This document shows, piece by piece, positions 5,526-37,634 of a stretch of 39,802 bases of DNA. Origin of the DNA: Draconibacterium orientale. Lineage in GTDB: Bacteria; Bacteroidota; Bacteroidia; Bacteroidales; Prolixibacteraceae. Position 1 is the stretch's first letter. The number at the start of each line of letters is the position of its first letter. The notes under the pieces were generated by a model. It had not been told where the DNA came from and made no database searches. It saw only the letters and a list, made by a program, of their open reading frames with translations. Location of the stretch: positions 1 through 39,802 of the forward strand of contig DYSZ01000016.1 in the NCBI GenBank assembly GCA_020726265.1, read 5' to 3'. Made by a program: the position numbers and the translations under genes.

Positions 5526-6932
5526 ATGGTTGTAAAGCAAAAAACACTGGCAAATTCATTCACCCTTCAGGGAAAAGGGTTACACACAGGTGTTTTTACT
5601 ACGATGAATTTTTTGCCAGCTCCCGAAAATCATGGTTTTAAATTTAAACGGGTCGATCTTGAACATCAACCCATTATCGATGCCGATGTTGATTTGGTTA
5701 TTGACACCTCGCGCGGAACTTTGCTTGAAAAAGACGGCGCACGGATTGGTACCATAGAACATGCACTGGCAGCTTTAATTGGCATGGATCTCGACAATGT
5801 TTTAATTGAGGTAAACAACGAAGAAGCACCAATAATTGATGGCAGTTCAATTGAATTCGTGAAAGCAGTTGAAAAAGCCGGCGTTATTGAACAGAATGCA
5901 GAACGTGAATACCTGGTTATCAAGGATAAAATCGAAATTTTCGATCCCAAATCGGGAGCTGAAATTGTTGCATTGCCCGACGATGATTACCGGCTGAATG
6001 TGATGATTTCGTTTAAATCGAAAGTACTGAACAACCAGTATGCAGTTTTGAATTCGATAAAAGATTTCAAAAACGAAATAGCCAACTGCCGCACATTTGT
6101 TTTTCTTCACGAACTTGAGTTTCTGCTGAACCACAACCTTGTAAAAGGTGGCGACCTGAACAATGCCATCGTAATTATCGATAAAGAAGTAAGCCAACCT
6201 GAACTTGACAGATTGGCCGATTTATTCGACCACAAACGAGTTGAGGTAAAACCACAGGGTATTTTGAATAACCTCGATTTACATTACGATAACGAATGTG
6301 CGCGCCATAAACTGCTCGATGTTATTGGCGACCTGGCGCTTTGCGGCAAACATATAAAAGGCCGTATTATTGCCTCGAAACCAGGGCATGGGCCGAATAC
6401 CATTTTTGCAAAAGCGTTAAAAAAATACATCCGCGAAAATGAAGAAAAAGCACCGGAATATGATCCAAACAAACCACCGGTAATCGATATTAATAAAATC
6501 AGACAGCTTCTTCCGCACCGTTATCCGTTTTTAATGGTCGATAAAATTATCTCAAAAAGCGATCTTCAGATTGTTGGGATAAAAAGTGTGACCTCAAACG
6601 AACCATTTTTCCAGGGGCATTTTCCGGAAGAACCTGTAATGCCGGGAGTTTTGCTTATTGAAGCAATGGCGCAAACCGGCGGATTACTGGTATTAAGCCA
6701 ATTAGAAGGAAAATACAGTACCTATTTTATCCGTATCGACAACGTGAAATTCAGAAAAAAAGTAGTACCGGGTGATACTTTGATTTTTAAATTAACTTTG
6801 GTTGCTCCAATCCGCAGGGGGATTGCACACATGAAAGGAGTAACTTATGTTGGTGATAAAATTGTTGCGGAAGGCGATTTTATGGCACAGATTGTTAAAC
6901 AAAACGAAAATAATAAAGAAATTTCAGAATGA
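5526..6932 (+). CDS. lpxC/fabZ: Bifunctional UDP-3-O-acyl-N-acetylglucosamine deacetylase / (3R)-hydroxyacyl-ACP dehydratase (LpxC-FabZ fusion)
   Basis: LpxC part: [37 protein letters not shown], HDxxG-like [17 protein letters not shown]. FabZ part: [37 protein letters not shown]. Confidence 0.96.
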
Positions 6933-7711
6933 AACAACCATTGGCATACGTACATCCCGATGCTAAATTAGCTGAGAGTGTGGTAATAGACCCATTTGTC
7001 ACCATCGATCAGGATGTTGAAATTGGGGAAGGTACGAGAATTGGATCAGGAGTGACCATTTTGCCCGGTACACGAATCGGAAAAAACTGCCGTATTTTTC
7101 CGGGAGCTGTAATTGGTGCTGTTCCACAGGACTTAAAATTCAGAGGTGAATATACTACTCTCGAAATTGGAGATAACAACACAATTCGCGAATTCGTAAC
7201 CATTAACCGGGGAACAGCTGCTAATGGCAAAACCATTGTTGGCAGCAACAACCTGATTATGGCTTATGTGCACATTGCTCACGACTGTGTGGTTGGAAAC
7301 AATATTATTCTTGTAAACAATACCCAGTTGGCCGGTGAAGTTATTATCGATGATTTTGCAATTCTTGGCGGTATGTCGGCAGTACATCAGTTTGTGCACA
7401 TCGGACCACATGTGATGATTTCTGGTGGTTCACTCGTTCGTAAAGATGTACCACCTTTTATTAAAGCTGGTCGCGAACCACTTTCTTATGTTGGAATTAA
7501 TTCTATCGGATTGCGTCGTCGTAATTTTTCGAACGAAAAAATCCGCGAAGTTCAGGATATCTATCGTTACATTTACCAAAAAGGGTTAAACACCTCTCAG
7601 GCAATTGAAATTATTGAAGCCGAAATGCCTGCTTCACTTGAGCGTGACGAGATTTTGCTTTTTGTAAAAGACTCGAAACGGGGAATTATCAGGGGTTATT
7701 TCCCTGATTGA
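6929..7711 (+). CDS. lpxA: Acyl-ACP--UDP-N-acetylglucosamine O-acyltransferase LpxA
   Basis: Hexapeptide repeats, [34 protein letters not shown], overlaps fabZ stop (ATGA). Confidence 0.95.
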
Positions 7712-7820: not shown

Positions 7821-7957
7821 CTACTTTCCGTGGTCCCAACCTTGTGCCACCAGCGGAATTTTTGAACCGGCAGTTGTTACAAGATTTGCTCCTTCGGTAG
7901 CTTCAGTCATGTGACCAATAATCGTGATATCGGGGTCATTTTTAATTTTATCGTAAG
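7821..7957 (-). pseudogene. Displaced thiL 3'-end remnant (45 C-terminal codons plus stop)
   Basis: Reverse complement encodes YDKIKNDPDITIIGHMTEATEGANLVTTAGSKIPLVAQGWDHGK*, nearly the same as the ThiL C-terminus encoded at 9322-9463 (YDKIKNDPDITIIGHMIEATEGANLVTTGGSKIPLVAQGWNHGKGG*). Homology stops abruptly at about 7957. Confidence 0.9.
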
Positions 7958-7976
7958 CAAATGGCTAATCTGAAAA

Positions 7977-8006
7977 TTGCAACATTCAGATTTTTTACTA
8001 ATTTCG
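7977..8006 (+). promoter_or_regulatory. Putative promoter/operator of the AbiE-like operon
   Basis: TTGC (7977-7980) and TAATTTCG (7999-8006) resemble -33/-7 elements. Inverted repeat aatctgaa (7967-7974) / ttcagatt (7985-7992) overlaps the promoter. Confidence 0.4.
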
Positions 8007-8031
8007 TAAACTGAACATCTGATTAATTGAC

Positions 8032-8610
8032 ATGTCTGGTTCACGAAATAATAAAACCGATCTTATCTTTTCGATATATAAGGATATTCGAACTGTTTTT
8101 AAATTAAAAGATATTGCTTTATTGGTTGGGGAAGAAAATTTCGGTTCGTTAAACCAAAAACTGAATTATTATGTGCGAACCGGAAAATTATACAGTCCCC
8201 GCAAAGGCATTTATACTAAATCCGGTTACAACAAAAATGAACTTGCCTGCACAATTTTCACTCCTTCATACATTTCACTTGAATTTGTGTTGCAAAAAGC
8301 AGGGATCATTTTTCAATATGATTCGCGAATAACAGCAATCAGTTATTTGAGCCGAAGTATTGAAATTGAGAGCCAGACATATTTGTACCGGAAATTAAAA
8401 AATGAGTTGTTAATTAACACGGACGGTATTGACAGACAAGTTAACCAGATAAATATTGCCACACCTGAGAGGGCTTTTTTAGATGTTTTATACCTGAACA
8501 AGGAATACTATTTTGATAATTTAAATCCGTTGAATAAAGAATTGATTTATAAACTTCTTCCACTGTTTCAATCGAAAATTCTGGAACAAAAGGCAGGCAA
8601 ATACTTTTAA
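8032..8610 (+). CDS. AbiEi-family antitoxin-like protein (type IV toxin-antitoxin)
   Basis: 192 aa; N-terminal wHTH-like segment then LNYYVRTGKLYSPRKGIYTKSGYNKNELACTIFTPSYISLEFVL..., ATPERAFLDVLYL, typical of AbiEi/AbiEi_4 proteins; directly upstream of an AbiEii-like gene. Confidence 0.8.
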   Translation: MSGSRNNKTDLIFSIYKDIRTVFKLKDIALLVGEENFGSLNQKLNYYVRTGKLYSPRKGIYTKSGYNKNELACTIFTPSYISLEFVLQKAGIIFQYDSRITAISYLSRSIEIESQTYLYRKLKNELLINTDGIDRQVNQINIATPERAFLDVLYLNKEYYFDNLNPLNKELIYKLLPLFQSKILEQKAGKYF

Positions 8611-8611
8611 A

Positions 8612-9310
8612 ATGGTTGACATAAACCGGCACAAATTTTTATTGGTTCAAATCCTGAAAGACATCTATTCTGATATTGAATTATCAAACTGGCTTGGGTT
8701 TAAAGGCGGCACTGCATTGCTCTTTTTTTACGAACTTCCCCGTTTTTCTGTCGATCTGGATTTTAACCTGCTTAATCCCGAAAAAGAGGATGCTGTTTAT
8801 TCAAAAGTTCGCAACATCTTGCTCAAATACGGTTCTATTACTGATGAAGCAAAAAAGTTTTTTGGATCGGTAATCGTTCTTGATTATGGATTTGGCGAAC
8901 GCAAACTAAAAGTAGAGATATCGAACCGGATTTTTGACAATCATTATGAAATAAAAAACCTGCTGGGAATTAATATGAAAGTAATGGTTCCGGCGGATAT
9001 GTTTGCCCACAAACTTTGCGCCCTGCTCGACAGGAATGCTGTAACTAACCGCGATATTTTCGATTGCTGGTTTTTTATGCAAAAACAAACTCCGGTTAAC
9101 AAAAACATTATTGAACTTCGGATGGAAATGCCATTTTCCGATTACTTACAAAAATGTATCGATTTGCTTGAATCAATTAGCGACAAGGGGTTACTGCATG
9201 GGATGGGTGAATTAATGGATTCGGAAATGAAAAATTTTGTCAATACAAAACTTCGAACGGAAACAATTAGTTTAATGAGTTTTTATAAGAAATTTCCGAT
9301 ATCTTCTTGA
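8612..9310 (+). CDS. Nucleotidyltransferase AbiEii/AbiGii toxin family protein
   Basis: LGFKGGTALLFFYELPRFSVDLDFNLL is the AbiEii GG(T/S)..DxDF nucleotidyltransferase motif; VPADMFAHKLCALLDRNAVTNRDIFDCWFF also typical. Starts 1 nt after the upstream stop. Confidence 0.88.
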   Translation: MVDINRHKFLLVQILKDIYSDIELSNWLGFKGGTALLFFYELPRFSVDLDFNLLNPEKEDAVYSKVRNILLKYGSITDEAKKFFGSVIVLDYGFGERKLKVEISNRIFDNHYEIKNLLGINMKVMVPADMFAHKLCALLDRNAVTNRDIFDCWFFMQKQTPVNKNIIELRMEMPFSDYLQKCIDLLESISDKGLLHGMGELMDSEMKNFVNTKLRTETISLMSFYKKFPISS

Positions 9311-9321
9311 AAAATAAAAAG

Positions 9322-10362
9322 TCATCCGCCTTTCCCATGATTCCAACCCTGAGCCACCAGCGGAATTTTTGAACCGCCAGTTGTAACCAGATTTGCTCCT
9401 TCGGTAGCTTCAATCATGTGACCAATAATCGTGATATCGGGGTCGTTTTTTATTTTATCGTAATCGGTTTGAGCAATCGTAAAAAGCAGTTCGTAATCTT
9501 CGCCACCGTTTAACGCAGCAACAAGCGGGTTCATATTCAGTTCCTCCGCCATTTGTTTGGTCTGTAAATCGAGCGGGACTTTCTCTTCGAACAGGTTACA
9601 ACCCACCCCTGAGTTTTTACATAAATGCAGAATTTCGGATGAAAGACCGTCGGAAATATCAATCATCGAAGTAGGTTTTACACCCATTTTCCCGAAGGCG
9701 GCAACCATGTCAACACGCGCTTCTGGTTTGAGTTGGCGTTGCAAAATATAGTCGTAGCCCGAGAGTTTCAGTTGTAAATTTGGGTTTACTTTAAAAACTT
9801 CGTTTTCGCGTTCTAACAGTTGAAGCCCCATATAAGCTCCGCCCAAATCGCCTGAAACACAAAGCAAATCATTGGGTTTGGCGCCAGAACGGTACACCTC
9901 GCTCCTTTTTTCAACTTCTCCCAAAACTGTAACGCAAATGGTAAGCCCTGTGAGCGAACTTGTTGTGTCGCCACCAACCAAATCAACACCATAATTTTCG
10001 CAAGCCAAGTGAATTCCTCTATAAATCTCTTCTATTGCCTCGACTGAAAATTTCGAAGAAACTGCGATTGAAGCAGTGATTTGGGTAGGTACTGCGTTCA
10101 TGGCGCAGATATCAGAAACATTCACAGCTACAGCCTTGTAACCCAAGTGTTTCAAAGGAACATACATCAGGTTGAAATGAATTCCCTCGGTAAGCAGGTC
10201 GGTTGAAACAACCACCTGCTTATTGCCAAATTCAAGCACAGCAGCATCGTCGCCAACTCCTTTTTTTGTACTGTTGTTTTTTATTTTTATATCCTTTGTT
10301 AGCCGTTCAATCAGGCCAAATTCGCCCAATTCCGAAATACTTGTTTGTTTTTCTTTATGCAT
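9322..10362 (-). CDS. thiL: Thiamine-monophosphate kinase ThiL
   Basis: GVGDDAAVLEFGNKQVVVSTDLLTEGIHFNLMYVPLKHLGYKAVAVNVSDICAMNAVPTQITASIAV, VGGDTTSS, MIDISDGLSSEILHL. Confidence 0.95.
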   Translation of the reverse strand: MHKEKQTSISELGEFGLIERLTKDIKIKNNSTKKGVGDDAAVLEFGNKQVVVSTDLLTEGIHFNLMYVPLKHLGYKAVAVNVSDICAMNAVPTQITASIAVSSKFSVEAIEEIYRGIHLACENYGVDLVGGDTTSSLTGLTICVTVLGEVEKRSEVYRSGAKPNDLLCVSGDLGGAYMGLQLLERENEVFKVNPNLQLKLSGYDYILQRQLKPEARVDMVAAFGKMGVKPTSMIDISDGLSSEILHLCKNSGVGCNLFEEKVPLDLQTKQMAEELNMNPLVAALNGGEDYELLFTIAQTDYDKIKNDPDITIIGHMIEATEGANLVTTGGSKIPLVAQGWNHGKGG

Positions 10363-36467: not shown

Positions 36468-37634
36468 CTAAAATTGTCTTATTAATTCAGATAAATTTTT
36501 GTAATTGACCAATTTGTGTTCAAGATAATTCATTTCGTTTTTGCCGGCATAACAAAGAATTGAATTTTTTGTTTTTTCGGGGAACAACAGTCTGAAATAA
36601 TTTAATCCTTTGACAAGACTTTTATTAAACGTTTCAGATGATTTTATTTCAATCACATCGTACGAAATAACATTGTCAAGAAGCAAATCAACTTCATTTT
36701 GATTGCTGTCACGATAAAAAAAGAAGTTATCCATTAAACTCCTGTTGTTCTGCGATTTTATGACCTCTGCAACAACTAGGTTTTCAAACAAAGCACCACG
36801 TAAAGGATGAAAATCAAGATGGTCAGGATTCTGAATCCTTAGCAGGGTTGATGCCAGACCAGTGTCAAAGAAATATATTTTGTATGATTTGGTTAATCTT
36901 TTATTAATATTTGTGTGAAATGGTTGAAGTTTAAAAATGACAAACGAAGTCTCCAAAATTGAAATCCATGAATTGATTGTATGAACTGAGACTCCAATTT
37001 CATTCGCCAAATGACTGGCTATGAATATTTGACCAGTTCTGCCTGCACATAATCTTAAAAAAGTCCTGAATTTATCAAGTTCTTTAATGTTAATTAGCTG
37101 TCGTAAATCACGTTCAATGTAGGTCTCAATATAGTCAGCATAAACTTTCGCAGGTAACAGGTTCATATCCCAAACCCGTGGATAAAATCCTTTGCAGATT
37201 GATTGGTTAATATTTGTTTCATTTAAATTTCCAAGCTCTTTAAAACTGAATGGAAAAAGTTTATAAAGAGCTGTTCTCCCTGCCAGTGACTGTGTGATAC
37301 TACTTAATAAGTTAAACTGTTGACTACCAGTAAGAATGAATTGCCCGGGGATGCTTTGTTCATCCACAATTTCTTGTATGTATGACAAAAGTTGTGGAAC
37401 ACGTTGAATTTCGTCCAGAATTACTCCGGTTTTATTGCTTTCTAAAAAATTTCGCGGGTCTGCAGTGGCAAGCTCATAATTGTCGGGATTCTCGAGTGAA
37501 ATATATATTTTTTGAGGAAATAATTTTTTTAACATGGTTGTTTTACCCGATTGCCGTGGACCAGAAACCGTGACAACCGGAAAATTTGCAGCGCCCTGCA
37601 ACACTTCGTTTTCTATTTCTCTATGAAGATACAT
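36468..37634 (-). CDS. AAA-family ATPase with DUF4143 domain
   Basis: Walker A VSGPRQSGKTTMLKKLFP, Walker B GVILDEIQRVPQLLSYIQEIVD, ILTGSQQFNLLSSITQSLAGRTALYKLFPFSFKEL, C-terminal DUF4143/PD-(D/E)XK-like FYRDSNQNEVDLLLDNVISYDVIEIKSSETFN. Confidence 0.93.
   Translation of the reverse strand: MYLHREIENEVLQGAANFPVVTVSGPRQSGKTTMLKKLFPQKIYISLENPDNYELATADPRNFLESNKTGVILDEIQRVPQLLSYIQEIVDEQSIPGQFILTGSQQFNLLSSITQSLAGRTALYKLFPFSFKELGNLNETNINQSICKGFYPRVWDMNLLPAKVYADYIETYIERDLRQLINIKELDKFRTFLRLCAGRTGQIFIASHLANEIGVSVHTINSWISILETSFVIFKLQPFHTNINKRLTKSYKIYFFDTGLASTLLRIQNPDHLDFHPLRGALFENLVVAEVIKSQNNRSLMDNFFFYRDSNQNEVDLLLDNVISYDVIEIKSSETFNKSLVKGLNYFRLLFPEKTKNSILCYAGKNEMNYLEHKLVNYKNLSELIRQF

Follow-up and report, generated by a model that had tools for sequence, protein, structure and literature searches.

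The 3' end of thiL, the housekeeping gene for thiamine-monophosphate kinase (vitamin B1), is present twice in the stretch of Draconibacterium orientale DNA analysed here (39,802 nucleotides, contig DYSZ01000016.1; hereafter the window), and a two-gene AbiE toxin-antitoxin (TA) module stands between the two copies (Table 1). One copy completes an intact thiL with an uninterrupted reading frame; the other lies as an orphan, in the same orientation, on the far side of the inserted module. We read this architecture, with a probability of roughly 60%, as C-terminal displacement, that is, the recombinase-free entry of the AbiE module and its promoter at the thiL 3' end. Comparable arrangements with other TA modules recur at thiL in other genomes, and the same AbiE module is found at the 3' ends of other genes.

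Table 1 Features between lpxA and thiL in the window, with positions, strand and basis of assignment.
Feature	Position	Strand	Basis or details
lpxA, convergent with thiL	6929-7711	+	Pfam hexapeptide and PF13720
Terminator-like inverted repeat 3' of lpxA	7717-7744/7754-7781		28-nt arms, 89% complementary, 9-nt loop
Orphan thiL 3' end (displaced tail)	7821-7956	-	Last 44 codons in frame, own TAG
Small terminator-like hairpin AATCTGAA...TTCAGATT followed by a T-run, in the gap between orphan tail and AbiEi	7967-7996	+	Read from sequence
Inverted repeat TTTCGTAAAC (8002-8011)/GTTCACGAAA (8039-8048) around the AbiEi start codon (putative operator)	8002-8048		Sequence; upstream regions of AbiE homologues
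AbiEi, type IV antitoxin, 192 aa	8032-8610	+	PADLOC PDLC02255, E=1.4e-83
AbiEii, nucleotidyltransferase toxin, 232 aa	8612-9310	+	PADLOC PDLC02324, E=1.1e-117; Pfam PF08843, E=4.6e-18
thiL, intact, 346 aa, C-terminus HGKGG*	9322-10362	-	PF00586; match in 60/61 relatives
3' part of thiL repeated at 7825-7956 (probably donor-derived)	9332-9463	-	Repeat search, tail tree and sites

A repeat search of the window returned the two copies as a 132-nt direct repeat with 91% identity and a spacing of 1507, and BLAST matched the two flanks of the cassette to each other (E = 2.3e-50); the preliminary description of this DNA had recognised two same-orientation copies at about 90%, and their length is now refined to about 132-137 bp. 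Exactly two copies of the thiL-tail repeat exist, with none elsewhere in the 3.86-Mb genome. The orphan aligns to thiL residues 301-344 at 93% and stays in frame with thiL from YDKIKND up to a TAG stop of its own (CTA on the plus strand, 7821-7823). As had been described, it differs from the intact copy by three substitutions (I to T, G to A and N to D) and is two residues shorter, ending HGK* where the intact copy ends HGKGG* (asterisks mark stop codons). AbiEi and AbiEii are the only ORFs of at least 80 aa between the repeats, in agreement with the earlier statement that no integrase is encoded there, and the lpxA-thiL interval of the window holds no recombinase ORF.

Judged by its sequence, the pair is a genuine AbiE system. 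An AbiEi-family antitoxin lies directly upstream of an AbiEii nucleotidyltransferase, PADLOC and Pfam profiles agree with the initial assignment of the cassette, and AbiEii keeps the nucleotidyltransferase motifs GGTAL...DLD, RDIFD and KLCALLDR, matching Pfam profile positions 2-177. The top AbiEii match among named genomes is that of Mariniphaga sp. KA03 (85%; hereafter KA03). Upstream of the AbiEi start, a TTTGTGAACT-like arm is kept across the AbiE subfamily, and its inverted partner overlaps the AbiEi start codon in the window and in several homologues; the inverted repeat around this start codon is probably the AbiEi operator. We infer that both thiL and the TA pair continue to function.

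Under displacement, the incoming DNA would have carried the AbiE module attached to the 3' end of a related thiL; this end would have paired by homology with the resident gene, acted as an anchor and become the new functional thiL tail. The far end of the module would have joined, without homology, inside the recipient's old tail, so that the old tail would have been pushed outward to become the orphan beside lpxA. We infer such a one-sided recombination step, and the process would probably be homology-facilitated illegitimate recombination. Once a tail-module-tail arrangement exists, homologous recombination between the tails could spread, delete or stack modules beside the living gene, and a mosaic orphan would fit a later step of this kind.

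Separate trees of the thiL tail and of the gene body, which the preliminary description had proposed, bear on which of the two tails is native. In the tail tree the orphan groups with the tails of the sister species G035 and the attached tail falls outside; in the gene-body tree the thiL genes of the window and G035 are sisters. Seven sites unite the orphan and G035 against the attached tail, six unite the orphan and the attached tail against G035, and four unite the attached tail and G035. These sites are unevenly placed: the lpxA-proximal half (alignment column 86 on) has 5 sites joining orphan and G035 and 0 joining orphan and attached tail, and the cassette-proximal half has 2 and 6, respectively (one-sided exact p about 0.016, with the break placed by eye after seeing the data). 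The orphan and strain 2 of G035 (L032) both end WDHGK*, and the attached tail ends WNHGKGG*; the orphan thus shares the N-to-D substitution and the HGK* end with G035 against the intact copy. Among the other genus members examined, G017 alone has an ending similar to HGKGG*: its thiL ends HGKGE* and is followed, about 20 bp past the stop and in the same relative orientation, by a 35-aa AbiEii C-terminal fossil. An apparent frameshift splits thiL of this genome into two ORFs (C15:110957-111996, L070).

The sites favour an incoming, distinguishable end on the living thiL, but the divergence of the attached tail equals that of the gene body (85.9% and 86.1% identity to G035, respectively), and the donor origin therefore rests on about five sites. 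Sliding identity along thiL showed no sharp donor tract. Furthermore, the orphan and the intact tail are each other's best match (90.2%), and their likeness in the cassette-proximal half requires an internal crossover or gene conversion. We favour an incoming unit of AbiEii plus thiL end, with a native orphan that would have undergone internal exchange; the case for a foreign attached tail has support but falls short of proof. Of the earlier proposal that the cassette and a foreign thiL end had recombined into the gene, the displaced tail and the rebuilt gene hold, and the foreign origin of the attached tail does so only moderately: the orphan groups with G035 in the tail tree, but by identity the attached tail has diverged from G035 no further than the gene body.

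We compared the thiL-lpxA spacing across 37 same-genus genomes (the window genome and 36 others, mostly draft metagenome assemblies), 29 of which have both genes on one contig. The two genes are convergent neighbours as a rule, with stops 53-235 bp apart in 21 of the 29 (window included), and varied cargo lies between them in the other 8. This cargo is AbiE in the window, a three-gene block in G035, and in G016 a G035-type three-gene block together with an AAA_14/DUF4143 ATPase 12 bp from the thiL end; it is an 845-aa protein in G002 and G013, a 1472-aa protein in G026, and apparent transposase genes (by eye) in G009 and G012. No tail remnant was found beside the cargo in G002, G013, G012, G009 or G026, nor upstream of the AAA_14 gene in G016. 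The thiL-lpxA spot is thus variable, and most of its variation lacks a thiL-tail scar. The position of the orphan beside the lpxA terminator had been taken to fit the ancestral convergent end of thiL; the terminator-like repeat is indeed present, but G016, G035 and KA03, all of the window's clade, carry extra genes adjoining lpxA that are absent from the window, and the nearness of orphan and terminator is therefore not simply ancestral. A search of the window genome for the CBM48-like gene of G035, run without a positive control, gave no match.

Within the G035 bin, the lpxA-thiL region occurs in two strain versions that are about 94.6% identical, L031 (C196) and L032 (C98). L031 has three genes between lpxA and thiL, and its thiL continues beyond the usual stop (WDHGQMECDRIQ*); L032 has only the first of these genes and then the thiL tail, inside which C98 stops at the contig end, and this contig was left out of the orphan/intact calls. 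On the suf-operon side, a distant AbiEii-like nucleotidyltransferase lies about 8 kb from thiL, at a near-constant distance, in four same-genus genomes (G002 C14:528984, G021 C12:60303, G032 C111:469096 and G006 C1:1254442), possibly marking a second TA spot near thiL.

The most elaborate case of recurrence is KA03. Its contig C3 carries, in order, the C-terminus of an AAA_14-type ATPase, a thiL tail remnant of about 60 bp and an AbiEi N-terminal remnant, followed by a 79-codon thiL tail (237 bp), an intact AbiEi-AbiEii pair and a remnant of the 3' end of an MNT gene; contig C143 carries an intact thiL, then a HEPN-MNT toxin-antitoxin pair, then another thiL tail. C3 at its right end and C143 at its left end have 11 bases in common, which suggests, and does no more than suggest, that the two contigs may adjoin. 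Successive displaced thiL ends in KA03 thus form arrays across C3 and C143, subject to this suggested join, and the AAA_14-thiL junction that is displaced in KA03 is intact in G016. An AAA_14/DUF4143 ATPase of the same kind is also encoded in the window at 36468-37634. In another family of the same order, G073 has thiL, a DUF6922 gene with an AbiEii-like nucleotidyltransferase, and a decayed thiL tail (105 bp, 81%). The break in thiL differs by locus: about 132 bp in the window, 237 and about 60 bp in KA03 C3, 120 in KA03 C143 and 105 in G073. The intervals between thiL tails at L113, L156 and L161 gave no recognisable recombinase.

Across the order, a survey of 393 genomes found a second true thiL tail only in the window and G073, which makes the event rare. 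Most second matches to the tail profile were AIRS-family paralogues of about 330-380 aa and were rejected as displaced tails, as was the second match in G393, an incomplete thiL with 96% identity that lies at the end of a contig. Neither a TA module of this kind nor a displaced tail turned up in 40 further thiL neighbourhoods from the order (a single 27-bp match, L179), and thiL is therefore not a hotspot for the order as a whole. AbiE beside thiL in Phocaeicola paurosaccharolyticus (L130) was considered as another case and rejected: a tRNA-Phe lies between them, and AbiE adjoins tRNA-Phe in the same neighbourhood in a Butyricimonas species (L132). Displacement at thiL is thus rare overall and concentrated in this lineage. 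The suggestion that the thiL 3' end serves as a swap point in the lineage is borne out by AbiE in the window, the AbiEii fossil in G017, AAA_14 in G016 and the mixed remnants in KA03, and other cargo at the site, likewise anticipated, extends once to another family (G073). Some relatives lack the cassette, and among genomes without it none was found to have an orphan tail (G035 C98, a contig end, set aside); a cassette with both repeats in every relative, or an orphan tail in a genome that never had the cassette, had been named beforehand as contrary to the proposal.

We then asked how often modules of this AbiE subfamily are bracketed, and counted a locus as such when the 300 bp upstream of AbiEi and the 400 bp downstream of AbiEii shared a direct repeat of 40 bp or more. 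Bracketing was found at 12 of 51 distinct loci (the 12 are not entirely independent, as L114 and L115 seem to be one site) and at 6 of 515 transcription units that had a gap upstream (odds ratio 26, p about 1e-9), a fairer control than compact gene pairs, among which none was bracketed (0/23 and 0/176). Three of the repeats are 3' ends of genes convergent with AbiE, namely thiL, a SPOR-domain gene (L101) and a fabD-like gene (L116), the latter two identified by eye from C-terminal sequence and not by a profile. The repeat is a terminator hairpin at L106, L114, L115 and L123, and hairpin-rich, palindromic or low-complexity sequence at L088, L091, L093, L095 and L129. At other loci, the same module is flanked by unrelated sequences. 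The left repeat copy ends 61-98 bp upstream of AbiEi in 10 of the 12, just outside the conserved promoter/operator block; this regularity points most strongly to a defined cassette, is least expected from random end-joining, and counts against displacement in being oddly regular for an illegitimate junction. One could tentatively propose, as an idea that we hold to be rather doubtful, that this AbiE subfamily, and perhaps other nucleotidyltransferase TA modules, move without a recombinase as a minimal cassette that starts about 65 bp upstream of AbiEi and stops about 10-30 bp downstream of AbiEii. Such a cassette would insert where a convergent gene has its 3' end or terminator, and copies of that sequence would then flank it. 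That AbiE modules are bracketed in general is the stronger claim and calls for a larger survey. The AbiE pairs of L125 and L129, which differ from each other, form a tandem on a single contig, and at L093 (G259) a second AbiEi operator-like sequence lies within the repeat to the right of AbiEii, as if from a decayed second AbiE unit.

The same observations can be arranged in other ways. A tail-AbiE-tail unit might have been acquired whole from a donor by purely homologous exchange, with two crossovers, one in the orphan tail and one in thiL. We consider this possible, though not probable; it is a variant of displacement that concerns the route into this genome, and the two are compatible. The mosaic orphan, like the intact copy on its cassette side (6 to 2) and like G035 on its lpxA side (5 to 0), would follow from such an exchange, and ready-made tail-module-tail units exist in KA03; however, only 13 sites are informative, gene conversion between the copies would look identical, and the exchange accounts for the spread of such units, not for the origin of the first. 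An old tandem duplication of the thiL end in this lineage, into which AbiE was later inserted and whose copies diverged by drift, would explain why orphan and intact tail are each other's best match and share six sites against G035. It is unlikely in view of the seven sites that the orphan shares with G035 against the intact copy, N to D and the HGK* end among them, and of the finding that a tail duplication free of cargo is absent from the 37 same-genus and 393 order genomes, whereas tails separated by TA modules recur.

Islands at the 3' ends of tRNA genes, guaA and prfC restore the gene from an incoming copy and displace the old end, and the outcome at thiL, a gene restored and an old 3' end displaced, is alike. 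Site-specific integration by a tyrosine recombinase acting in trans, with an attachment site in thiL and the gene restored from the element's copy of the 3' end, would also suit the regular left borders of the bracketed modules and the AbiE genes beside tRNA-Phe in Phocaeicola and Butyricimonas. We nevertheless judge it improbable, because no integrase was found, either in the window interval or at L113, L156 and L161, and because the breakpoints in thiL vary from about 60 to 237 bp with no constant crossover point; the repeats are moreover diverged throughout, with no constant identical core, and unrelated sequences bracket the same module at other loci. The varying breakpoints likewise tell against the likeness to site-specific islands drawn in the preliminary description. 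Finally, two strains might have been merged in one contig across the repeated thiL end, and the window genome is fragmented (346 contigs) and the G035 bin does mix two strain versions of the region. Such an assembly artefact is very improbable: the orphan-AbiE junction has no thiL-shared sequence able to bridge two strains, and the independent assemblies of KA03 and G073 show the same architecture.

TA and defence modules vary in place between related genomes, usually without an enzyme able to move them. The thiL locus can be read as a record of module entry, in which rebuilding of the gene leaves its former end behind as a scar and successive scars stack up in order, and the recurrence points to a simple, recombinase-free settling of such modules. 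The scar, a direct repeat bracketing a module, can be searched for, and the idea is therefore testable in any set of genomes. In the open-access literature searched, no paper was found that describes insertion at thiL, and by that literature the repeated displacement of a housekeeping-gene end by different TA modules is a new form of a known process.

Compared with integrative elements at gene 3' ends, the locus has no integrase and no constant crossover, and its repeat is diverged along its whole length. An insertion sequence or transposon is likewise a poor match, with no transposase ORF at the window locus and a direct repeat as long as 132 bp at 91% identity. The proteins themselves are ordinary for type IV (abortive infection) AbiE systems, with AbiEi followed by AbiEii in a compact operon and an operator-like inverted repeat at the AbiEi start; what is unusual is their bracketing by host-gene 3' ends or terminators. 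The closest likeness in process is to C-terminal displacement as earlier proposed for rhs genes and T6SS effector-immunity loci (PMC5361080), where a module with a copy of the gene's 3' end enters by one-sided homology, the old 3' part is orphaned outward, and repeated events build arrays with the newest beside the living gene, as here in KA03. In contrast to rhs and T6SS loci, the gene concerned here is a housekeeping gene with a nearly unaltered product, and an intracellular TA module unrelated to that gene forms the cargo.
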